From: Anaeromyxobacter sp. Fw109-5
Lineage (GTDB): Bacteria > Myxococcota > Myxococcia > Myxococcales > Anaeromyxobacteraceae
NCBI RefSeq assembly: GCF_000017505.1
Contig: NC_009675.1
Span: forward strand, 4,840,501-4,904,500
Length of the DNA stretch: 64,000 nt
Direction: 5' to 3'
Shown here: piece after piece, positions 6,289 to 29,829 of the stretch
Layout of the letters: every line of letters starts with the position of its first letter
Position numbering within the stretch: position 1 is the stretch's first letter
The notes under the pieces: generated by a model
Told to the model about the DNA's origin: nothing
Database searches by the model: none
Seen by the model: only the letters and a program-made list of their open reading frames with translations
Translations under genes and position numbers: made by a program

Positions 6289-7179
6289 TCAGAGGCCGTC
6301 ACGTCCTGCCGTTGGCTCCGCGGACGCGGCGTACGGCTCCAGCGCGGCGGCGTAGCGCCGGACGAGCTCCGGCGGCGCGTCCACCGGCCGGCCGGCCACG
6401 AGCGACTCGAGCATCAGGGCGTTCGCCGGGGCCTTGCCCTCGAAGTGGTTGTTCGTGACCACGTAGACGTCCGGGTGGGCGGGGGCCGCGTCGAGCGCGC
6501 GGATCCGCTCCGCCCACGGCGCGAGCTCGGCCGCCGTGTACAGGTAGTCGTAGCGCGCGTCGCGTCCGGCGGTCTTGCGGAACCAGTCCTTCCAGTTGCG
6601 CCCGTGGACCCGCACGTACGCGACGGGTGAGGTGACCTTCGCGCCGGGGCGGAGCGAGTGGTGGAAGAGCGGCTGGTCGACGTTGACGAAGCCGACCCGC
6701 GCCTCGGTGAGCTCCTCGAGGACCTCCCGCGCCCCCCACGAATCGTGGCGCACCTCGAGCACGAGCGGCAGGCCGGCGAACGCCCGGAAGAGTCCCCGCA
6801 GCCACTCCTCGTTGGGGCCGGTGCGCTTGAACGACCAGGGGAACTGGAGCAGCGCCGCGCCCAGCTTCCCCGCGCCGTGCAGGGCGTCGAGCGCGGCCCG
6901 CCCCTGCTCGACCTCCTCCGCCCCGTACGCCTCGCGCTCGTGCGTGAACCGGCGCCAGACCTTGGCGCCGAAGCGGAACTGCGGCACGTCGGAGACGCGC
7001 TCGAGCCAGCGCGCCGCCACCGCGGCGGGGAACGGGCGGTAGAAGGAGGCGTTGACCTCCACGGTCCCGAAGTAGCCGGCCAGGAACCGGAGCCGGTCGA
7101 ACCCGCGCGGCTCCGGCTTCGGGTAGACGATCCCGGCCCAGTCGTCGTACTCCCACCCCGCCGGCCCGAAGCGGATCAC
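6289..7179 (-). CDS. DUF72 (YecE-like) family protein
   Basis: A 296-residue protein begins at GTG 7179 with the family N-terminus (IRFGPAGWEYDDWAGIVYP), a TIM-barrel fold marker. It continues with VEVNASFYRPF, QFRFGAKVWRRFTHER, LLQFPWSFKRT, LVLEVRHDSW, YVRVHGRNW and YVVTNNHFEGKAPANAL, which are the conserved DUF72 blocks in the usual order and length. The biochemical role of the family is not established. No signal peptide is present, so it is cytoplasmic. It is convergent with exonuclease III and divergent from the FHA-GGDEF gene. Confidence 0.9.
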   Translation of the reverse strand: MIRFGPAGWEYDDWAGIVYPKPEPRGFDRLRFLAGYFGTVEVNASFYRPFPAAVAARWLERVSDVPQFRFGAKVWRRFTHEREAYGAEEVEQGRAALDALHGAGKLGAALLQFPWSFKRTGPNEEWLRGLFRAFAGLPLVLEVRHDSWGAREVLEELTEARVGFVNVDQPLFHHSLRPGAKVTSPVAYVRVHGRNWKDWFRKTAGRDARYDYLYTAAELAPWAERIRALDAAPAHPDVYVVTNNHFEGKAPANALMLESLVAGRPVDAPPELVRRYAAALEPYAASAEPTAGRDGL

Positions 7180-18090: not shown

Positions 18091-18124
18091 TCCCAGGAGT
18101 CCGGGTCTCACGACCGGGGTGCAC

Positions 18125-20074
18125 ATGAAGCGCGTCGTCGTCGGCACTGCCGGTCACATCGATCACGGCAAGACCTCGCTCGTCCGGGCGCTGACCGGGA
18201 TCGACACCGATCGGCTCCGGGAGGAGAAGCGCCGCGGGATCACCATCGAGCTCGGCTTCGCGCACCTCCCGCTGCCCGACGGCACCGTGGCGGGCGTGGT
18301 GGACGTCCCCGGTCACGAGCGGTTCGTTCGCGCCATGGCCGCCGGCGCGGGCGGGATCGATCTCGTCGTGCTCGTCATCGCCGCCGACGAGGGCGTCATG
18401 CCCCAGACGCGCGAGCACCTCGACATCTGCCGGCTCCTCGGCGTTCCGCGCGGGCTCGTGGCGGTGACGAAGTCGGACCTCCTGCCCGAGCTGGGGACAG
18501 ACTGGCTCCCGCTGCTCGAGCAGGACGTCCGCGAGGTGACGCGGGGCACGTTCCTCGAGGGCGCGGCGATCGTCCCGGTCTCCGCCGCCACCGGCGAGGG
18601 GCTCGACGAGCTCCGCGCTGGGCTCGGCCGGCTCGCGGCCGAGGTGCAGGAGCGGCCCGCGGACGGGCCGGTCTTCCTGCCGATCGATCGCGCCTTCTCG
18701 ATGAAGGGGTTCGGGACGGTGGTCACTGGGACGCTGCTCTCCGGCCAGATCGCCGAGGGGGACGAGGCGGCCTTGCTGCCGTCCGCGCCCGGCGCCCCCG
18801 CGCTGCGCGTCCGCTCGGTGCAGGTCCACGGCAAGCCCGCCGCGCGCGCGCTCGCCGGCCAGCGCACCGCGGTGAACCTCCCCGGCGTCGAGCCCGCCGC
18901 GATCCAGCGCGGACAGGCCCTCGTGCACGCGGGCGTGGTGCCGCAGTCGTCGATGCTCGACGTGGAGGTGACGCTCCTCGCCGCCGCGCCGAGACCGCTC
19001 AGGCACCGCGCGAAGCTGCTGCTCCACGTCGGGACCGCGCAGGTCCCGGCGGCGGTCGCGCTCGTGGACCGCGGCGAGCTCCGGCCCGGGGAGACGGCGT
19101 TCGCCCAGCTCCGGCTCGGCCAGCCCGTCGCGGCGCTGCCGGGGCAGCGCTTCATCCTGCGCGGCTTCACGGTCCTCCAGGGCCGCGGCAAGACGCTCGC
19201 CGGCGGCCGCGTCCTCGCGGTCGCCGCCCCGCGCCGCCGCCGGGGGCGCCCCGAGGGGCTGCGCCAGCTCGAGGTCCTCGCGCGCGGGGAGCCCGACGCG
19301 CGCGTCGCCACGGTGCTCGAGATGTCCGGTCCCGCCGGGCTCGAGCTCGGGGGGCTCGTCGGGCGGACGGCGCTCTCGCCGAAGGCGGCGCAGACGGCGC
19401 TGGACCGGCTCGGCGCCAAGGGCGGTGCGCTGCTCTTCGACCGCGAGCGGCGCGCCTACGTGGCGGGGACCGTCGCGCAGGAGCTCGCCCAGCGGCTCCT
19501 CGCGGCGGTGGACGCCTTCCACGCGGAGCGGCCGCTCGCGGCCGGCGTCGGGCGCGAGGAGCTGCGCGGGCGCCTCCCGCCGGTCACCGACCCGCGCCTG
19601 TTCCAGCGGCTCCTCGCGCAGCTCGCCGACAGGGGCGAGCTGGTGCTCGAGGGCGACCACGTGCGCCGCAAGGGGCACGCGGCGGCGTCCGGCGCCGACG
19701 CCGGGGCCCTCAAGGAGAAGGTCGCGCAGGCCCTCTCGAAGGGCGGCCTCACGCCGGCCTGGCTCGCCGAGCTGCCCCCGCTCGTCGGCGGCTCTCCCGC
19801 CGACGTCCAGGCGGTGCTGAAGCTCCTGCTCGCCGAGGGGCGGGTGGTGCGCGCGTCGTCGGAGCTCTGGTTCGACGGCGCCGCCGTGGCCGCGCTGCGG
19901 GAGCGGCTCGTCGCCTTCCTGCGCGAGCGGCGCGAGATCACCACCCAGGAGTTCAAGGAGCTCGTGGGCGCCACCCGCAAGCACGTCATCCCGCTCGCCG
20001 AGTACTTCGATCGCGAGAAGGTGACGCTGCGCGTCGGCGAGAAGCGCGTGCTGAGAGGCGAGGGGCGAGGATGA
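18125..20074 (+). CDS. selB: Selenocysteine-specific elongation factor SelB
   Basis: A 649-residue protein is predicted from ATG 18125; a GTG at 18119 is also possible. The translational GTPase domain has [13 protein letters not shown] (P loop), the switch I region [30 protein letters not shown] (G3) and TKSDLL (G4). After the beta-barrel domains the C-terminal third (from about residue 380) contains the winged-helix repeats that bind the SECIS hairpin in selenoprotein mRNA; the last one ends [32 protein letters not shown]. It delivers Sec-tRNA to UGA codons. selA is 12 kb away at 31944. Its stop overlaps the histidine kinase start by 4 nt (ATGA), a strong sign of one operon. Confidence 0.96.
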
Positions 20075-23000
20075 GGGAGGCGGCGTCGCTCGAGGCCGTC
20101 GGCACCCTCGTCGTCCGCGACGGCCGGATCCTCTACGCGAGCCCGCTCGTGGCGGCGCTCGCCGAGTCCGCGCCGGAGGCGCTCGTCGGCACCGATCCGT
20201 TCGCGCTCATCGCGCCCGAGGATCGCCCGCGCACGGCGGAGCGGTACGCCCGGCGGCTCCGCGGCGAGCCCACCCCCGCCGAGTACGAGGTGGCCCTCGC
20301 CCTCCCCTCGGGCGAGCGGCGCGCGGTCGAGCTGCGCGTGGACGTGGACGGGCCCGACGTGGTGGTGCGCCTGCGGGACGTCTCCGCCCGGGCCGACCGC
20401 CGCCCGCGCCTCGAGGCGCTCGCGGCGCTGGGCGCCGCGATCCAGCGGGAGCGCAGCGAGGCGGCCGTCTTCGAGCGCGTCCGCGACGGCCTGCGCGGGA
20501 TCGGGCTCACCGCGCTCCTCATGCGGCCGGACGGGGACGGGGTTCGCATCGAGTGGGCGTCGCCGGCGCCGGATGTGGCCACGGCCTTCGAGGAGCGGGC
20601 GGGCCCCCTGGTCGGCCGGCCGGGCCGGTGGAGCCCGTTCTCGCGCACCGTCTGGGAGGAGGGCGCGGCGTACTCCGACGACTGGGGCGCGGACGTCGCC
20701 GCGTTCGTGGGCGAGGTCCGGGCGGAGGAGGCGCGCGCCACCGCCGTCGCGCTCGGGCTGTCGCGCGCCATCGCCGTGCGGCTCGACGAGCGCGCCGCGA
20801 TCCGCCACTACCTCGTGATCGTCGGCGACTGGCTCGACCGCGGGGACCTCGCCGCCGTGCGCCTCTTCGGGGCGCAGGTGGCCGCCGCGCTCGACGCGTC
20901 GCGAATCATCGCGGACCTGTCGCGCCGGAACGCCGAGCTCGCCGCGCTGAGCCGCCTCGGCGCGATCGCCGGAGACGCCCCGGACCTCCCGAGCTTCTTC
21001 GCGCGCGCCGCCGATCTGGTCCGCGCCGCGAGCGGCTGCGACGGGCTGTGCGTCTACGTGCTGGACGACCGCGCCGGCGAGCTCGTCTGCCGGTTCCACG
21101 ACGGCGTGGACGCCCCGCCGCCCGGGCAGCCTCGCCTCTCCCTCGCGTCGCCGATCGGCGACGTGGTGCGCGATCGCGCCGCGCGCGTGGTGGAGGGCGG
21201 CGGCGAGGGGCCCGGCGCCAGGCTCGCGGCGAGCGCCGGGTTCGCCGCGAGCGCCTGGGTGCCGCTCGTCGCCCGCTCCCGCGTGGTGGGCGTCATGGTC
21301 GCGGGCTACCGGGACGGAGCGGAGCGGGCGCGCGCGCGCCTCGACGTCCTCGCCGCCGGGGCCGCCCACTTCGGCGGCGCCATCGAGTCGCACGGGCTGC
21401 TCGCCGACCTCCGCCGCCGCGTGGGCGAGCTGACGCTCCTCAACGACCTCGCGCTCGCCTCGGCGCAGCTCGACCCGGTCCTGCTGCTCGACGCCGCCCT
21501 CCGCCGGGTGTGCGACACCCTCGACGCGGGCGGCGCCGCCTTCCTGCGGGACGGCGACAGGCTCCTGCTCGTCTCGGGCGTGGGCCTCGCCCCGGACGCG
21601 GCCCGCGCCGTCTCCCAGCTCCAGGTGGGCGAGGGGGCGCCCGGGCTCGCGGTGACGCGGCTCGCGCCGGTGGACGGCCGCGACGCGGCCGCGCGCGGCG
21701 CGGCGTGGGACGCGTTCCGCGCCGTCCGCGGCGACGGCCCGCTCGTCGCGGTGCCGCTCCTCGCGAAGACCCACGCGCTCGGCGCGCTGGTGCTGGGGCG
21801 GCCGGCGGGCGGGCGCGACCTCGAGCCCGGCGACGTGGGCCTCCTCTCGGCCATCGGCGTCCAGCTCGGGGTGGCGGTGGAGAACGCCCGCCTCTTCTCC
21901 GACGTCCGGCGCCGCCTCTCCGACCTCGAGGCGGTCCACGCGCTCGCCCTGCGCATCTTCGGGAACGCGCCCGGGGACGTTCGCGCGCTGCTGGAGGACG
22001 GCTGCCGCGAGACCGCGCGGGCGCTCTCGGCGCGGGCGGCCGCGGTGCTGCTGGTCGAGCCCGACGGCAGATCCCTCCGCGGCGTGGCGGCCTTCGGCAC
22101 GCCGATGGACGCCAGCCAGCTCCGCGTCTCGCTCGACGAGGACGCCCTCGCGGCCGAGGCGTTCCGGCGCCGCGCCCCGGCGTGGACCCCCGACACGAAG
22201 ACCGACCCGCGGACGACGTTCGGCGCGGCCCCCGCGATGCCGCCGCTCGCGCTGCTGGCCGTGCCGCTGTCCTCGCGCGCGGCGACGCGCGGCGTCCTGT
22301 ACGTGGCCGACGACGCCGGCCGGACCTTCGGCGATCCCGAGCTCGCCCTCGCGAACGCGCTCGCGGGCGAGCTGGCGGTCGGGCTCGAGAACGCGGAGCT
22401 CTACGCCGAGACGCGCGCGCGCGTCGAGGAGCTCTCCCTGCTGAACGAGATGGGCCGCACGGTGGCGGCCTCGCTGGATCTCGAGCAGGTGCTGCGCGAG
22501 GGCGTCGAGGCGGCGCGCCGGCTGGTGGGCGCGACGCGCGGGGCGGTGCTGCTCTACGATCCGGTCGCGAACGCGCTGCAGCTCGCGACCGGGACCGGCC
22601 TCACCCCCGAGGAGGTCGCCGCCTCCCGGGGCGCCATGCGCTCCGGCGGGATCTCGCTCCGCGTGATCCGCGAGCGGCGCGCCATCGTGGTCGACGACGT
22701 CGCCGCGGACCCGCAGATCAACGCGCTGTTCAGGCAGCGGCTCGCGCCGCGCTCGCTGCTCGCGGCGCCGATCCTGCTGCGGGGGGAGCCGCTCGGAGTC
22801 CTCCTCCTCGACGAGTCCCGCCGGCTTCGCCACTTCACGGAGGCCGAGGTGCAGCGCGTGGCCGCGGTCGGGAACCAGCTCGCGGTGGCCATCGAGAACG
22901 CGCGCCTGTACCAGGCCGCGCGGAATCGGCTCGCCGAGCTCTCGGCGGTGATCGACGTCGCCCGGGTGGTGTCCTCCTCCCTCGAGCTCGAGGAGGTGCT

Positions 23001-24630
23001 GGGCGCGGGCGCCGAGCAGCTGATGCGCACGCTCGAGAGCCCCGCGTGCGCGATCCTCCTCGGCGACGGGCGCGGTCAGGCGCTGCGCCGCGCGGCCTCA
23101 CGGGGCGCCCTGATCGGAGCGGAGCGGCTGTCGCTGGCCGAGCCGTCGCTCGCGCGCGCCGCGCTCGAGGCGCGCGCGCCCCTCACCGGGCCCGCGGACG
23201 CGGGCGCGGCGGACGGGCCGCCCGTCCTCGCCGTGCCGCTCCACGTCCGCGACCAGCCGGTCGGGGTGGCGCTCGTGGCCGGGGCGGACGCGGAGCGCAC
23301 CTTCACCCCCGGAGAGCTCTCGCGCGCCATGGCCATCGCGAGCCAGCTCGCCGTCGCGGTGGACAACGCCCGCCTCTACTCGGAGACGCGCCGCCGCGCC
23401 GAGGAGCTCGCCCTCCTGCACGACGTGGGACGCTCGCTCGCGACCCTCGACATCGAGCAGGTGCTCGGCGAGGGCGTGAAGAACCTCGCGCGCATCGTCG
23501 AGTGTCCCGCGGCGTTCCTGGCGCTGGGCACGAGCGAGGGGGCAGACCTCGACGTCCGCGCCGTGGCCGGCCCCATCCGCCCCCTGCTCGGGAAGCGCCT
23601 CTCGGCGGGCGCGACGGCGCTCGTGGCGCGGGTCCTCGAGCGGCGCGAGCCGCTCGCGCTCGAGAACGTCGACGAGGACGCTCGCATCTCGGCGGAGGCC
23701 CGGGCGCTCACGGGGGCGCGCGCGGCGGTCGTCCTGCCGCTCCTCGTGCGCGAGCGCGCCATCGGCGTCGCCGTCGTCCTCGACACGCGCGGGGAGCGGC
23801 GCTTCACGTCCGCCGAGATCCAGCGGGCGGCGGCCATCTCGAACCAGCTCGCCGTCGCCGCCGACAACGCCCGCCTGTACGAGGACCTGCGCGGGAGCTA
23901 CGCCGAGCTCGGGCGCGCGCAGCGCCAGCTCATCCAGCAGGAGCGGCTCGCGGCGCTCGGCGAGCTCTCCGCGGTCGTCGCCCACGAGGTGCGCAACCCC
24001 CTCGGCGTCATCTTCAACTCGCTGGGCTCGCTGCGGCGCCTGCTCCGCCCCGCCGGCGACGCGAAGCTGCTCCTCGACATCGTGGGCGAGGAGGCGGACC
24101 GGCTGAACCGGATCGTCGGCGACCTGCTCGACTTCGCCCGCCCCTCCGACCCGCAGCTCCGGCCCGAGCGGCTGGAGCGCGTCGTCGAGGAGGCCATCCA
24201 CACCGCGCTCGCGCAGAACCCGCAGGGGGTGGAGGTGAGCCGGGACGTGGACCCGGAGCTGCCGGCCGTGCCCATCGACGCGCGGCTGGTGCGGCAGGCG
24301 GTGATCAACGTGGCGGTGAACGCCATCCAGGCGATGCCGCGCGGCGGCCGGCTCACCGTGCGCGTCCGCCGCGAGGACGGCACGGCCGCGCTCGACGTCG
24401 AGGACACCGGCCCGGGCATCCCGGACGAGGTGAAGCACCGCATCTTCGAGCCGTTCTTCACGACGAAGGCCAGCGGCACCGGGCTCGGGCTCGCCGTCGT
24501 GAAGCGGATCGTGGACGGACACGGCGGCGAGCTGGTGGTACACAGCCGTCCGGGGGCCGGCACGCTGTTCCGCATCCGCCTGCCGCTGCGCGACCCCGCG
24601 TCCGCCGAAAAGGAGCCCCGCCTTGGCTGA
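20071..24630 (+). CDS. Multi-GAF sensor histidine kinase
   Basis: A 1519-residue soluble kinase with no membrane segment. A PAS-like domain occupies residues about 5-110 (GTLVVRDGRILYASPLVAAL). About seven consecutive GAF domains follow to about 1275, separated by recurring coiled-coil linkers such as NQLAVAIENARLYQAARNRLAELS and SQLAVAVDNARLYSETRRRAEEL. The HisKA dimerisation domain has the H-box GELSAVVAHEVRNPLG with the phospho-acceptor His near residue 1304. The HATPase domain (about 1400-1510) has the N, G1, F and G2 boxes: NVAVNAIQAMP, VEDTGPGIPDEV, IFEPFFTTKASGTGLGLAV. It overlaps selB by 4 nt and the NtrC gene by 8 nt, so the regulator at 24623 is almost certainly its partner. The signals sensed by the GAF array are unknown. 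Confidence 0.95.
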   Translation: MREAASLEAVGTLVVRDGRILYASPLVAALAESAPEALVGTDPFALIAPEDRPRTAERYARRLRGEPTPAEYEVALALPSGERRAVELRVDVDGPDVVVRLRDVSARADRRPRLEALAALGAAIQRERSEAAVFERVRDGLRGIGLTALLMRPDGDGVRIEWASPAPDVATAFEERAGPLVGRPGRWSPFSRTVWEEGAAYSDDWGADVAAFVGEVRAEEARATAVALGLSRAIAVRLDERAAIRHYLVIVGDWLDRGDLAAVRLFGAQVAAALDASRIIADLSRRNAELAALSRLGAIAGDAPDLPSFFARAADLVRAASGCDGLCVYVLDDRAGELVCRFHDGVDAPPPGQPRLSLASPIGDVVRDRAARVVEGGGEGPGARLAASAGFAASAWVPLVARSRVVGVMVAGYRDGAERARARLDVLAAGAAHFGGAIESHGLLADLRRRVGELTLLNDLALASAQLDPVLLLDAALRRVCDTLDAGGAAFLRDGDRLLLVSGVGLAPDAARAVSQLQVGEGAPGLAVTRLAPVDGRDAAARGAAWDAFRAVRGDGPLVAVPLLAKTHALGALVLGRPAGGRDLEPGDVGLLSAIGVQLGVAVENARLFSDVRRRLSDLEAVHALALRIFGNAPGDVRALLEDGCRETARALSARAAAVLLVEPDGRSLRGVAAFGTPMDASQLRVSLDEDALAAEAFRRRAPAWTPDTKTDPRTTFGAAPAMPPLALLAVPLSSRAATRGVLYVADDAGRTFGDPELALANALAGELAVGLENAELYAETRARVEELSLLNEMGRTVAASLDLEQVLREGVEAARRLVGATRGAVLLYDPVANALQLATGTGLTPEEVAASRGAMRSGGISLRVIRERRAIVVDDVAADPQINALFRQRLAPRSLLAAPILLRGEPLGVLLLDESRRLRHFTEAEVQRVAAVGNQLAVAIENARLYQAARNRLAELSAVIDVARVVSSSLELEEVLGAGAEQLMRTLESPACAILLGDGRGQALRRAASRGALIGAERLSLAEPSLARAALEARAPLTGPADAGAADGPPVLAVPLHVRDQPVGVALVAGADAERTFTPGELSRAMAIASQLAVAVDNARLYSETRRRAEELALLHDVGRSLATLDIEQVLGEGVKNLARIVECPAAFLALGTSEGADLDVRAVAGPIRPLLGKRLSAGATALVARVLERREPLALENVDEDARISAEARALTGARAAVVLPLLVRERAIGVAVVLDTRGERRFTSAEIQRAAAISNQLAVAADNARLYEDLRGSYAELGRAQRQLIQQERLAALGELSAVVAHEVRNPLGVIFNSLGSLRRLLRPAGDAKLLLDIVGEEADRLNRIVGDLLDFARPSDPQLRPERLERVVEEAIHTALAQNPQGVEVSRDVDPELPAVPIDARLVRQAVINVAVNAIQAMPRGGRLTVRVRREDGTAALDVEDTGPGIPDEVKHRIFEPFFTTKASGTGLGLAVVKRIVDGHGGELVVHSRPGAGTLFRIRLPLRDPASAEKEPRLG

Positions 24631-26065
24631 GATCCCCCCCGGCATGCCCGCCCCGGACGAACCGCGCCTGGAGCCGCGCGGCGGCGCGCTCGTGGCCGGC
24701 AAGATCCTGGTGGTCGACGACCAGAAGAACATGCGCGCCACCACGGCGATCGTGCTGCGCCAGGGGGGGCACACCGTCGAGGAGGCGGAGGACGGCGCGG
24801 CGGCGGTCCAGCGCATCCAGCAGGAGACCTTCGACGTCGTCCTGACGGACCTGCGCATGCCCAGCGTCGACGGCATGGAGGTGCTGCGCGCGGCGCAGCG
24901 GCTCGCTCCCGAGACGCAGGTCATCGTCATGACCGCCTACGGGACCATCGAGTCCGCGGTCGACGCGATCCGGCAGGGCGCGTACGACTTCCTCGCGAAG
25001 CCCTTCAAGGAGGACGAGCTCCTCCTGCGCGTCTCGAAGGCGCTCGAGAAGCGCCGCCTGCTCGGCGAGGTGAGCCTCCTCGCCGGCGAGTTCCGCAAGC
25101 GGTACGGCCTCGAGCACATCGTCGGCCGCTCCTCGGCCATGCGCGACGTGCTCGATCGTGTCGTGCGCATCGCCCCCACCGACGCCACCGTCCTCGTCAG
25201 CGGAGAGTCCGGCACGGGCAAGGAGCTCGTCGCGCGGGCCATCCACGTGGCGAGCCGCCGCGGCGACAAGCCGTTCGTGCCGGTGAACTGCGCCGCCATC
25301 ACCGAGACGCTCCTCGAGTCGGAGCTCTTCGGGCACGCGAAGGGCGCCTTCACCGGCGCCGTCCGCGCCCGGCGAGGGATGTTCGAGGAGGCGAACGGCG
25401 GCACGCTCTTCATCGACGAGATCGGCGAGACCGCGCCCGGCTTCCAGGCGAAGCTCCTGCGCGCCCTGCAGGAGGGAGAGATCCGCCGCGTGGGCGAGTC
25501 GACGCCCGTCCAGGTGGACGTCCGCGTGATCGCGGCGACGAACCAGGATCTCCGCCGCGCCATCGCCGAGCGCCGCTTCCGCGAGGATCTCTACTACCGC
25601 CTCGCGGTGGTGCCGGTCCGGATCCCGCCGCTCCGGGAGCGCCGCGAGGACGTTCCCCTGCTCGCCGCGCACTTCCTCCAGCGATACAACCGCCGCACCG
25701 CCGAGGGGAAGACCCTCGCCCCCGAGGCCCTCGCGCGCCTCGTCGAGCACGACTGGCCCGGCAACGTCCGCGAGCTCGAGAACGCCATCGAGCAGGCGGC
25801 GGCGCTCTCGCCCGGGCGGGAGATCCGCGAGGGCGACGTCCAGCTCGAGCACGCGCGCGGGCTCCCCGCCGCGCCGGCGGAGGAGGCCCGTACCCTCGCC
25901 GAGGCGGTGGAGGAGGCGGAGCGGTGCGCGATCGAGGCGGCCCTGGCTCGCTGCGAGGGCGATCTCGGCCGCGTCGCGCGCGAGCTCGGCGTCTCCGCCA
26001 CGACGCTGTGGCGGAAGATGAAGCGACTCGCCATCGAGGCGCGCGGGGCGCCGACGCAGCCCTGA
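24623..26065 (+). CDS. NtrC-family sigma-54-dependent response regulator
   Basis: A 480-residue activator starts at TTG 24623, chosen for the aaaaggagccccgcc site just upstream; its first 8 nt overlap the kinase gene. Residues about 27-145 are a receiver (VVDDQKN, phospho-acceptor Asp near 76 in VVLTDLRMPSVDG, KPF lysine). Residues about 165-390 are the AAA+ domain with Walker A GESGTGKE near 194, the sigma-54 contact loop GAFTGA near 242, Walker B GGTLFIDEIGE, and the R-finger region RFREDLYYRL. The C-terminus is a Fis-type HTH (LGRVARELGVSATTLWRKM). It should open sigma-54 promoters when phosphorylated by the upstream kinase. A near-perfect -24/-12 promoter lies 156 bp after its stop codon. 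Confidence 0.96.
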   Translation: MAEIPPGMPAPDEPRLEPRGGALVAGKILVVDDQKNMRATTAIVLRQGGHTVEEAEDGAAAVQRIQQETFDVVLTDLRMPSVDGMEVLRAAQRLAPETQVIVMTAYGTIESAVDAIRQGAYDFLAKPFKEDELLLRVSKALEKRRLLGEVSLLAGEFRKRYGLEHIVGRSSAMRDVLDRVVRIAPTDATVLVSGESGTGKELVARAIHVASRRGDKPFVPVNCAAITETLLESELFGHAKGAFTGAVRARRGMFEEANGGTLFIDEIGETAPGFQAKLLRALQEGEIRRVGESTPVQVDVRVIAATNQDLRRAIAERRFREDLYYRLAVVPVRIPPLRERREDVPLLAAHFLQRYNRRTAEGKTLAPEALARLVEHDWPGNVRELENAIEQAAALSPGREIREGDVQLEHARGLPAAPAEEARTLAEAVEEAERCAIEAALARCEGDLGRVARELGVSATTLWRKMKRLAIEARGAPTQP

Positions 26066-26087
26066 ACCCCGGCCCGTTTTTCAGCGC

Positions 26088-26115
26088 TGCAATGGGGTCT
26101 TTCACCCGTGCAATG
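26088..26115 (+). promoter_or_regulatory. Direct repeats, possible upstream activator sites
   Basis: TGCAATG occurs at 26088-26094 and again at 26109-26115, exactly 21 bp apart (two helical turns), about 105-130 bp upstream of the sigma-54 promoter at 26221. This spacing and distance are typical of enhancer sites for NtrC-type activators. A 7-bp repeat is short, so this is a candidate only. Confidence 0.4.
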
Positions 26116-26220: not shown

Positions 26221-26236
26221 TGGCACTGAAGTTGCT
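26221..26236 (+). promoter_or_regulatory. Sigma-54 (-24/-12) promoter
   Basis: TGGCAC (26221-26226), five bases, then TTGCT (26232-26236) reproduce the sigma-54 consensus TGGCAC-N5-TTGC, with GG and GC separated by exactly 10 bp. The start of transcription is predicted near 26247. The element is immediately downstream of the gene for an NtrC-type activator. Confidence 0.72.
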
Positions 26237-26246
26237 ATGCGTGAGG

Positions 26247-26330
26247 GAAGAGAAGTGCAAAGCAGCCTGGTTGAAGGAGGTCCCCCCCCGCCACTTCAGC
26301 TGCGCTTTGCACTTCTCTTTTCTTTTTCTC
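26247..26330 (+). ncRNA. Candidate sigma-54-dependent small RNA or structured leader
   Basis: The predicted transcript starts at the base of a perfect 16-bp inverted repeat: AAGAGAAGTGCAAAGC (26248-26263) and GCTTTGCACTTCTCTT (26304-26319), with a 40-nt loop. A pyrimidine/T-rich tract follows (ttctttttctc, 26320-26330), as in an intrinsic terminator. The loop carries AAGGAGGT (26273-26280), which resembles a Shine-Dalgarno element or a CsrA-type GGA site but has no start codon at a useful distance. The stem is 21 nt from the receiver gene's ATG, so it could instead be a 5' leader that attenuates that gene. The gene set around it (histidine kinase, NtrC regulator, sigma-54 promoter, stem-loop) recalls the Pxr sRNA locus of Myxococcus xanthus; homology was not tested. 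Confidence 0.45.
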
Positions 26331-26339
26331 GCGGCGCGC

Positions 26340-26672
26340 ATGGCCTCGTTCCTCATCGTCGACGCTGACCGCAACTTTCGCGAGGCAATCGCCATCGCGC
26401 TCAGGCTGGACGGGCACACCGCGGTGGTGGTGGCGAGCGCGGACGAGGCGCTCGCCCGGATCGGCCACGGTCCGCTCGACTGCTGCGTCGTGGACGCGCA
26501 CCTGCTCGGCGCCGACGAGGTGCTGGAGGCGGCGGGCGCCGCCGGCGCGCGCACGGTCGTGACCGGACCCCACGAGGACCTGCTCGCCCACGCCGCCCGT
26601 CGCCACCCGCTCGCGCAGCCGCTCGCCAAGCCCTTCGCCGCCGACGCGCTGGCGCACCTGCCGGCTTCCTGA
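26340..26672 (+). CDS. Stand-alone response regulator receiver domain
   Basis: A 110-residue protein starts at ATG 26340. It keeps the receiver residues: the acidic pair in FLIVDADRNF, the phospho-acceptor Asp in CCVVDAHLLGADEV (near residue 50), the Thr in TVVTGPHED and the Lys in LAKPFAADAL. There is no output domain, so it would act as a phosphorylation sink, a phosphotransfer step, or through protein contact. No Shine-Dalgarno sequence precedes the ATG. The frame is open upstream to 26220 across the sigma-54 element and the stem-loop, but I see no start signal there. It lies just after the kinase/NtrC operon. Confidence 0.7.
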   Translation: MASFLIVDADRNFREAIAIALRLDGHTAVVVASADEALARIGHGPLDCCVVDAHLLGADEVLEAAGAAGARTVVTGPHEDLLAHAARRHPLAQPLAKPFAADALAHLPAS

Positions 26673-26753: not shown

Positions 26754-28223
26754 CTACAGGAGGATCGCGCCGGCCGCCTGCGCGAGCCGCACGACCGGAT
26801 CCGCGACGATGCCGAGCAGCACGACCACCGCCACCGCGGCCGCCAGCGCGAAGGACATCGCGGGAGACGAGAGCGTCTCGCTCTCCCCCACCGCCGGCCG
26901 CATGTACATGTAGACCACGACGCGCAGGTAGTAGTAGACGCCCATCGCGCTCGTCACGACGCCCAGGATCGCGAGGCCGTAGAGCTCCGCGCCGACCGCC
27001 GCCTGGAAGATGTAGAGCTTCCCGACGAAGCCGGCGGTGGGCGGCACGCCCGCCAGCGAGAGCAGGAACACCGCCATCGCGAAGGCGAGCGCCGGGCGCC
27101 GCCGCGCGAGGCCCGCGAAGCGCTCGAGGTCCCAGGCCTCCGCCGGCTCGTCGTCGAGCCGCGACCGCCGCTCGAGCGCCCCCACCACCGCGAACGCGCC
27201 GATGGCCGTCGCCGCGTACGCGGCGAGGTAGAAGAGCAGCCCCGCGAGCGCCTTCTCGCGCGCGCCCGCCACCGAGGCGGACAGCACGCCGACGAGCAGG
27301 TACCCGGCGTGCGCCACCGAGGAGTACGCGAGCATCCGCTTCACCGAGCGCTGCGGCACGGCGAGCAGGTTCCCGAAGATCATGGTCAGCACGGCGAGGC
27401 CGGCGAGGATGCCGGAGAACGCGCTCGCCTGCGCGACGGTGCCCGCCTCGGCGGAGAGGAAGATGCGGACGAGGAAGGCGAACGCGGCGGTCTTCACGCC
27501 GGCCGCCATGAACGCGGTCACGGGCGTCGGCGCGCCCTCGTACACGTCCGGCGTCCAGGCGTGGAACGGGACCGCCGCGATCTTGAAGGCGATGCCGGAG
27601 GCGACGAGGGCGAGCCCGGCGAGGTAGAGCGAGGAGCCCCGCCCCTTCGCGAGCTCGGCGAACAGCGTCGAGCCGCTCGCCCCGTAGAGCAGCGCCGTGC
27701 CGTAGAGCAGCAGCGCCGAGGAGATGGCGCCCAGCACGAGGTACTTGAACGCCGCCTCCGACGGGCGCTTGCCGCGGCGGAGGTAGGCGGCGAGCGAGTA
27801 GGTCGCGAGGCTCATGACCTCGATGGCGATGAACGCCACGAGGAGGTCGGTCGCCATCCCGAGCAGCGCCATGCCGGCGGAGCCGAACAGGGCGAGCGCG
27901 TAGAACTCGCCGCGCTCCGCGTTGCGGGCGCGCAGCCAGCCCGCGCCGATCAGGGCGGAGAGGGCGAGCCCTCCGCAGACGACCACGGTCACGAAGGCCG
28001 AGAAGTCGTCCGCCACCGCCTGCCGGCCGAAGACGTAGCCCGAGACGGGGCGCAGCACCGCCGCCGCGCCGGCGGCCGCGGCGAACACGACCGTGATGCC
28101 GGCCTGGTACCCGCGCCGCCCCGAGACGAGGAACACCTCGCTGAGGAGCACCGCGAGCGCCCCGACCGTGAGGATCGCGATCGGCAGGAGCGCCAGGAAG
28201 TCGTTCGTCGGGAAGCCGTTCAT
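26754..28223 (-). CDS. nuoN: NADH-quinone oxidoreductase subunit N
   Basis: A 489-residue polytopic membrane protein is predicted from ATG 28223, one base after the nuoM stop; a GTG at 28238 is a less likely start. It has about 13-14 hydrophobic helices of the Mrp antiporter-like fold. The key proton-channel residues are visible: the TM5 glutamate in [14 protein letters not shown] and the TM7 lysine in [33 protein letters not shown] (only the first part quoted counts as the helix). It is the third gene of nuoL-nuoM-nuoN. In complex I it is the antiporter-like subunit nearest the quinone arm. Confidence 0.95.
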
Positions 28224-28224
28224 G

Positions 28225-29829
28225 TCAGTGAGCCCCACCGGTGGGGAGGACGATCGGGAGCGTGGGGGCGGGGGCCGCGGCTCCGGCGCGGACGGACACC
28301 GCCGGCGCGATGGTGCCGACCTGCGGCCCGGTGCCCAGCCGCTGCTCGACCTGCTGGAAGCGCGCGATGAGCCGATCGACCGCCGGCTTCGCCGGCGCGA
28401 GGAACGGCCCCGGCAGGATCCCCATCACCACGATGAGCGCGATCATCGGGGCGAGCACGAAGCCCTCGCGCACGGAGAGATCCGGGAGCCCCCGGTTGGC
28501 CGGGTTGCGCATCGGCCCGAAGAACACCCGCTCGACCAGGATCAGCATGTAGACCGCGCCGAGGATGACGCCGAGCGCGCCGAGCGTCGCGAAGAGCGAC
28601 GCCGACTGCAGCCGCGAGAGCCAGCTGCCCGAGAGGATGAGGAACTCGCCCACGAAGCCGTTCGTGCCCGGGAGGCCGACCGACGAGAGCGTGACGATCA
28701 CGAACGCGGTCGCGATCAACGGCACCTGCCGCGCGAGCCCGCCGTACTCTGCGATGAGGCGCGTGTGGCGCCGCTCGTACAGCATGCCGACGATGAGGAA
28801 CAGCGCCCCCGTCGACACGCCGTGGTTCAGCATCTGGTAGACCGAGCCGGTGAGCCCCTCCGCCGAGAGGGCGACGAGCCCGAGCATCACGAAGCCGAGG
28901 TGCGAGACCGAGGAGTAGGCGACGAGCCGCTTCATGTCCGTCTGCACGAGCGACATGAGCGCGCCGTAGATGATGCCGATCACCGCGAGCGTCGCGATGG
29001 CCGTCCGGTACTGGAGCGCCGCCTCGGGGAAGAGCGGGAGCGCGTAGCGGAAGAAGCCGAAGGTGCCCATCTTGAGGAGCACGCCGGCCAGGATCACCGA
29101 CCCGGCCGTGGGCGCCTCGGTGTGCGCGTCGGGCAGCCAGGTGTGGAGCGGGAACATCGGCACCTTCACCGCGAACGCCAGGGCGAAGGCGAGGAAGAGC
29201 CAGCCGGCCGCCTGCGGCGTCACCGCCAGCGACTGCCGGGCCTGGACGTAGTCGAAGGTCCCGCCGTCGTGGAAGTACACGTACAGGATCGCGAGCAGCA
29301 TGAGGACGCTCGCGGCGAAGGTGTAGACGAAGAACTTCACCGTCGCGTACAGCCGGTTCTGCGAGCCCCACACGCCGATGAGCAGGTACATCGGCACGAG
29401 GATGAGCTCCCAGAACACGTAGAAGAGCACGAGGTCGAGGGCGGCGAAGGTCCCGATCATCGCCGTCTCGAGCACGAGCAGCGCGATCATGAACTCCTTC
29501 ACGCGCTCCTCGACCGCCCGCCACGCCGAGAGGATCACGATCGGGGTCAGCACGGTCGTGAGCATCACGAGCAGGAGCGCCACGCCGTCGAGCCCGACGT
29601 GGTAGCCGATCCCGATCGACTGGATCCACGGCGTGAACTGCTCGAACTGGAACTCCGGCGCGCCGGGCGAGGCGTCGAACCCGAACCACAGCCCCAGCGA
29701 CAGCAGGAAGGTGAGCAGCGAGAACGACAGCGTGATGGCCCGGTGCTGGCCCGGCTCGTCGCGCGGGACGAGCACGAGCGCGAGGGCGCCGGCCGCGGGG
29801 AGGAAGGTGACGACGGTGAGCAGGTTCAC
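28225..29829 (-). CDS. nuoM: NADH-quinone oxidoreductase subunit M
   Basis: A 534-residue polytopic protein starts at GTG 29829, three bases after the nuoL stop. Family blocks include [39 protein letters not shown] with the TM5 glutamate, [20 protein letters not shown] with the TM7 lysine, and [15 protein letters not shown]. It would translocate protons as a central antiporter-like subunit of complex I. The nearly abutting gene order nuoL-M-N indicates translational coupling. Confidence 0.96.

Follow-up and report, generated by a model that had tools for sequence, protein, structure and literature searches.

Within the analyzed window, a 64-kb stretch (G000:C1:4840501-4904500) of the 5,277,990-base single-contig Anaeromyxobacter genome G000, a histidine kinase gene and a gene for an NtrC-type sigma-54 activator are followed by a tandem pair of palindromes, a sigma-54 promoter element and a predicted small RNA made of one hairpin (Table 1). 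The group is flanked by selB and nuoN, with a gene for a receiver-only protein between the RNA and nuoN. In Myxococcus, the small RNA Pxr prevents the onset of multicellular development, and the gene order selB-kinase-NtrC-[RNA]-nuoN-nuoM is identical in the window and around the true pxr genes of Myxococcaceae (those above the Rfam cut-off).

Table 1. Coordinates of genes and predicted elements at the hairpin locus, counted from the first base of the window
Feature	Position	Strand	Basis or remark
selB, selenocysteine elongation factor, left synteny marker	18119..20074	+	ORF; synteny
Histidine kinase at PxrK position	20071..24630	+	Pfam: PAS, 6 GAF, HisKA, HATPase
NtrC-type sigma-54 activator, PxrR (nla19/SpdR) ortholog	24623..26065	+	Pfam: Receiver, Sigma54_activat, HTH_8; best match, tree
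Palindrome 1 of tandem pair, TTTCAGCGCTGCAA, inferred PxrR enhancer site	26079..26092	.	Motif TTKCA-N4-TGMAA
Palindrome 2, TTTCACCCGTGCAA, 21 bp further on, inferred PxrR enhancer site	26100..26113	.	Motif TTKCA-N4-TGMAA
Sigma-54 promoter TGGCAC-N5-TTGC (-24/-12)	26221..26235	+	Start predicted near 26247
Predicted small RNA, ~83 nt	26247..26329	+	One hairpin, pyrimidine/U-rich tail; fold z = -6.5, covariation
Outer stem, 5' arm	26247..26263	+	Exact inverted repeat, fold
Apical hairpin, homologous to Pxr stem-loop 1	26270..26300	+	Identity, Rfam Pxr alignment
Terminal loop CCCCCCCC (C8), inferred pairing seed	26282..26289	+	Fold; loop C columns invariant
Outer stem, 3' arm	26304..26320	+	Exact inverted repeat, fold
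T-rich tract 3' of stem, inferred intrinsic terminator	26316..26330	+	Sequence; T-rich in nearly all A1 homologs
Receiver-only small protein, lineage-specific	26340..26672	+	Weak Response_reg, 25.8 bits vs cut-off 30.2
nuoN, right synteny marker	26754..28238	-	ORF; synteny

The flanking genes occupy the same places in Myxococcaceae, selB left of the pxr operon (mostly 56-61% identity) and nuoN, on the same strand, to the right of pxr (49-57% identity). That a kinase and an NtrC-type activator are encoded upstream of the hairpin, as the sequence-only reading had it, is borne out by their Pfam domains. The C-terminal part of the kinase is 44-49% identical to the pxr-adjacent kinase of Myxococcaceae; apart from this region, only single GAF-containing stretches of the six-GAF protein align with those kinases. 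The best match of Myxococcus (G050) PxrR in the genome of the window is the NtrC-type protein of the locus (62% identity and 540 bits; the runner-up has 49% and 383 bits), and in a PxrR tree the proteins of the order are grouped with support of 100/98, along with two from class mates without the RNA. Synteny, best match and tree thus meet one published feature of Pxr, orthologs of pxrK and pxrR directly upstream. The conserved PxrR recognition helix was not discriminating, since it is common to related proteins lacking the RNA.

A second published feature, a sigma-54 promoter just downstream of pxrR, is also met. The promoter proposed from the sequence alone is present as TGGCACTGAAGTTGC and is the sole TGGCAY-N5-TTGC in the window, where 0.10 were expected from shuffles. 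Loss of the -24/-12 element in relatives would have counted against the proposal; the element is kept, with a sigma-54-like match 55-59 nt 5' of the C-loop in 22 hairpins, although a few of these are weak (TGGCCC, TGGCGC). The distance from promoter to loop is 58 nt in the window vs 59 nt in Myxococcus, and most Myxococcaceae pxr fall within 56-60 nt.

Upstream of the promoters lies the palindrome TTKCA-N4-TGMAA, usually in two copies ~19-22 bp apart. Sixty-five instances were counted in 42 hairpin loci, with 0.01 expected from mononucleotide shuffles, and the motif occurred in only 2 of 27 loci with a PxrR-like NtrC gene and no detected hairpin. The count is partly descriptive because the motif was first spotted by eye in part of the same loci, some of which are duplicates or close relatives. 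Most of the non-syntenic hairpins, which were inspected later and are independent of motif discovery, bear the palindrome too. Two of the three sites in the genome of the window are at this locus. The motif is likely the PxrR site, although binding is inferred, and the sharing of the palindromes makes PxrK/PxrR-dependent expression likely. The part of an earlier report on Pxr that was available mentions an upstream enhancer-binding region without this motif (PMC5684412).

The predicted RNA has a folding energy of -41.9 kcal/mol (z = -6.5), and none of 200 shuffles was equally stable. The perfect 16-bp inverted repeat described earlier (26248-26263 with 26304-26319) is exact and the fold extends it to 17 bp; the pyrimidine/T-rich tract said to follow the stem is there as well. 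Above the outer stem, the apical stem pairs 26269-26276 with 26294-26301 and 26279-26281 with 26290-26292. The sequence-only reading erred in placing AAGGAGGT in the loop: 26274-26281 contributes to the upper stem and to an internal loop, and the terminal loop consists of C8. Its suggestion that AAGGAGGT might bind the ribosome or a CsrA-like protein found no support: this stretch is paired and variable (GTAGGT, GCTGGT, GTTGGT), while the C-loop is constant. A ribosome-binding role for the stretch was rejected on the grounds that it is base-paired and not conserved. The outer stem and U-tract look like the terminator of a single-hairpin RNA. A simple terminator scan did not call the tract or hairpin, perhaps because of the limits that it sets on stem and loop length. 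Many Rfam microRNA families matched the hairpin and were rejected, as long perfect stems make this likeness structural only; no Rfam match to the 6C family was found at the hairpin.

A DNA search detected the element both within Anaeromyxobacter and in further families of its order. The hairpin is present in eight of nine Anaeromyxobacter genomes; the ninth (G008, 66% complete) has tandem palindromes near a contig end. In an alignment of 21 homologs (A1), seven loop C columns are invariant and the Shine-Dalgarno-like stretch varies. The structure pairs in 95.9% of cells, and changes on both sides of a pair occur in 40 cells; shuffles gave 11.6 such cells and slid controls no more than 7. Double changes affect 7 of the 12 pairs of helix 1. 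Stem changes without compensation, which would have refuted a functional hairpin, were looked for in this alignment, and compensatory changes were abundant instead. One locus (L085:4898-5001) keeps the promoter and has a wholly rewritten outer stem, a C6 loop and no clear T-tract; it is possibly decaying or changed in function.

These data bear on two readings in which the hairpin is not a regulatory RNA in its own right. The first holds that it merely terminates the kinase-NtrC operon and that the promoter-like match arose by chance. The hairpin does follow the operon and ends in a T-tract, but promoter and palindromes are similarly placed in many genomes and the loop is invariant, so that conservation refutes this reading and we give it almost no credence. 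The second makes the hairpin a cis-acting leader or attenuator of the receiver gene, the expression of which would be set by termination or read-through. The gene starts 10 nt past the T-tract (its Shine-Dalgarno sequence is not obvious), and Anaeromyxobacter as well as several other members of the family retain it downstream. It was found only in Anaeromyxobacteraceae among 20 loci compared, however, and the hairpin occurs without it in families f9 and f4 and in genome G020, as well as in non-syntenic places. The conserved part is moreover the loop and not an anti-terminator alternative, and we regard attenuation as very unlikely.

In order to ask whether the RNA is related to Pxr, covariance models were used in both directions. 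The search with the Rfam Pxr model (RF01812, gathering score 80 bits) that had been proposed as a check fell short: at 26270-26300 it reached 13.8 bits, over model positions 8-38 only, and across the whole genome of the window it gave no match at E up to 10. The score stays below the cut-off because the window RNA lacks stem-loops 2 and 3; Pxr as published has three stem-loops, and the window has one hairpin and then a U-tract. Rfam searches of four relatives found nothing relevant, and weak Rfam Pxr matches (E 0.2-0.6) in two other Anaeromyxobacter genomes do not lie at this locus and were not taken as evidence. A reciprocal model (R1) was built from A1, which contains no Myxococcaceae. It finds Myxococcaceae pxr with E values of 1.6e-7 (G099), 4.2e-7 (G095) and 0.015 (G050, Myxococcus), for example, in each case where the Rfam Pxr model also places the gene. 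The 31-nt apex is identical at 29 of 31 positions to stem-loop 1 of a deep Myxococcaceae pxr and at 26 of 31 to that of a Myxococcus, whereas every non-apex position among 362,212 reached at most 22 of 31. With its C8 loop, the apex thereby meets by sequence the published stem-loop 1 with C-rich loop; its function is inferred.

The sequence-only reading had left it undecided whether this was a Pxr relative or an independent sigma-54-dependent RNA. On the latter view the RNA would be only analogous to Pxr, its C-loop hairpin having evolved on its own downstream of an NtrC operon. The failed Rfam model and the difference in architecture, one hairpin vs three, would suit separate origin. It is largely refuted by the location of the RNA in the same place between orthologous genes, the 29/31 apex, the shared palindromes and the graded intermediates in deep Myxococcaceae, and we see very little room for it. 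Relatedness to Pxr is strongly supported by position, regulator orthology, promoter, enhancer motif and stem-loop 1 sequence, all of them sequence comparisons. Given 13.8 bits and no whole-genome match, the RNA counts as an ortholog of Pxr on the strength of its position, regulator, promoter and stem-loop 1, and not as a member of the Rfam family; it is a single-hairpin variant of Pxr, outside Rfam Pxr as defined.

The two forms differ in how they end. In Anaeromyxobacter and families f9, f3 and f2, a T-tract lies directly 3' of the C-loop hairpin, while Myxococcaceae have a separate terminator hairpin, stem-loop 3, after it. In Myxococcaceae pxr, the leader (predicted start to Rfam start) forms base pairs with the flank 3' of stem-loop 1, and a long hairpin tipped by stem-loop 1 is therefore common to both forms. 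An alignment of these genes (A2) has changes on both sides in 33 cells over the whole structure vs 8.2 in shuffles, with 6 of 8 pairs of the outer helix doubly changed; the covarying outer stem comprises columns 11-19 with 67-75, partly beyond the Rfam model. Separate terminator-like hairpins also occur in f7 and f6 and at a second Anaeromyxobacter locus. The family f7, in which they are found, is the first-branching one, but its placement is weakly supported (90/61).

At E <= 0.001, R1 matches families f1, f2, f3, f4, f7, f8 and f9 of the order. By inspection, f6 (G028, G034) has palindromes, promoter and a C-run downstream of PxrR, and in f5 (G027, R1 E 0.011) a promoter and a hairpin lie between selB and nuo, with no local PxrR found. 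The sole R1 match outside the order is in G188, where a PxrR of 68% identity is directly followed by two palindromes, a promoter and a hairpin with a C9 loop. This circuit (L226, G188:C85:1-14000) lies in an A+T-rich genome assigned to another class of the phylum. Its PxrR adjoins Anaeromyxobacteraceae in the tree, which suggests transfer or a misplaced genome. No hairpin was detected behind PxrR in several Anaeromyxobacteraceae (L082, L084, L243, L244, L255-L257), and some genomes of the family without one there (G009, G011, G016) have it elsewhere.

Further copies were observed as well. Related hairpins with the loop context GGGGACCCCCC(C)GCACCUC occur away from PxrR in other Anaeromyxobacteraceae (L192, L193, L194, L204, L208), with a sigma-54 promoter and mostly with palindromes. 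The genome of the window has a second locus downstream of another NtrC-type gene (L232, G000:C1:2362000-2376000, minus strand, ~6680-6878), with two TTKCA-N4-TGMAA-like palindromes, GGCAC-N5-TTG(C/A), a short hairpin with a C7-8 loop and a strong terminator-like hairpin. It looks like a paralogous RNA and has counterparts in three other Anaeromyxobacter genomes (L234, L236, L237). Three tandem copies ~270 bp apart, each with a promoter-like element, were found on one contig (L076/L098, G040:C158); tandem pxr paralogs are known in Cystobacter and offer a parallel.

We consider it probable that the locus encodes a compact, single-hairpin pxr ortholog under PxrK, PxrR and sigma-54, the C-loop of which acts on mRNAs. 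Orthology of position and regulator and conservation of promoter, palindromes, structure and loop are established, as far as comparison of genomes can do so; transcription, binding by PxrR, the point of termination, pairing of the loop and its targets are inferences. The kinase at the PxrK position and the PxrR ortholog, encoded just upstream, would sense an unknown signal. PxrR would then bind the two palindromes (26079-26113) and activate sigma-54 polymerase at the promoter, and an RNA of ~83 nt would begin near 26247 and end in the U-rich tract past its own outer stem. The C8 loop, at the tip of Pxr stem-loop 1, may pair with G-rich sequence around translation starts and thereby repress those mRNAs. 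Synthesis of Pxr needs PxrK and PxrR (PMC10217877) and is controlled by them (PMC10217877, PMC5684412). The latter report also states that a C-to-A change in the loop of stem-loop 1 abolishes the function of M. xanthus Pxr and that stem-loop 3 is required for its accumulation (PMC5684412).

The main rival to mRNA pairing is titration of a protein by the RNA, whether one that binds C (Rho, for example) or, via GGA, one resembling CsrA. A stiff stem capped by a long C-loop could plausibly be bound by a protein, and direct pairing targets of Pxr are unestablished in any species (PMC11928866). The GGA of the stem is not conserved, however, no protein partner is known, and a C-loop RNA that has been tested, mycobacterial B11, acts via its C-rich loops to repress an mRNA whose 5' UTR contains six G (PMC10470900). 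Titration is unlikely in our estimation, but it cannot be dismissed as readily as the readings above. Sites with G8 upstream of ATG numbered 40 as listed (some overlapping) in nine genomes vs 8 in a reversed control; there were few per genome, with two in the genome of the window. They were rejected as targets, as Shine-Dalgarno sequences alone could explain the excess. No obvious conserved G8 target set was seen in the nine genomes, and therefore no target is claimed for the pairing that we prefer.

Among known systems, Pxr of M. xanthus and other Myxococcaceae shares with the window the orthologous position, PxrK/PxrR-type genes upstream, sigma-54 promoter, upstream palindromes and stem-loop 1 with its C-loop, and tandem paralogs occur in some relatives. 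The window RNA differs in having one hairpin without stem-loop 2 or 3, in which outer stem and U-tract are probably the terminator, in scoring under the Rfam cut-off, and in belonging to a host without described fruiting bodies. Mycobacterial 6C and B11 are alike in their C-rich hairpin loops and the G tracts in target 5' UTRs (PMC10470900); they differ in having two C-loops and another promoter and regulators, and no sequence homology is claimed. The Qrr RNAs of Vibrio, often present in several copies, are likewise small RNAs under sigma-54 and an NtrC-type activator governed by a kinase relay, but they are unrelated in sequence and Hfq-dependent. An Hfq homolog has not been found in sequenced myxobacteria (PMC5568312).

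Pxr is well known and has been portrayed as evolutionarily recent. The literature differs on where pxr arose, with one report placing it as basal to the suborder Cystobacterineae (PMC5568312) and another favouring an emergence within Myxococcaceae (PMC11928866). Anaeromyxobacter belongs to Cystobacterineae, family Anaeromyxobacteraceae, in the NCBI taxonomy, and our result agrees with the basal origin and contradicts an origin in Myxococcaceae only. No description of Pxr in Anaeromyxobacter was found in the literature searched, which did not cover the original 2014 survey. Anaeromyxobacter has, to our knowledge, no described fruiting bodies, which is why the ancestral role is likely to have been control by nutrient or growth state, with the RNA later recruited to gate development in Myxococcus. 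As a compact relative of Pxr sits in the same place, under the same switch, in a bacterium not known to form fruiting bodies, the RNA circuit probably predates the gating of development. We lean, with only moderate confidence, towards a wider conclusion: that a family of sigma-54 C-loop hairpin RNAs, controlled by PxrR and spread across the order, is older than Pxr, which would be one derived branch of it. This family would have at least one locus per genome, move between loci and have been at work before multicellular development was tied to it, and the Myxococcaceae form would differ from it by a separate terminator hairpin (stem-loop 3).

The finding suggests that the minimal form of Pxr is stem-loop 1 with an outer stem, and it supplies a likely binding site for PxrR, with binding still inferred. 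The Anaeromyxobacter circuit, whose signature recurs in most of the families that make up the order, provides an outgroup for the pre-developmental role of the RNA, and comparison of species with such different lives could expose a shared core of Pxr targets.
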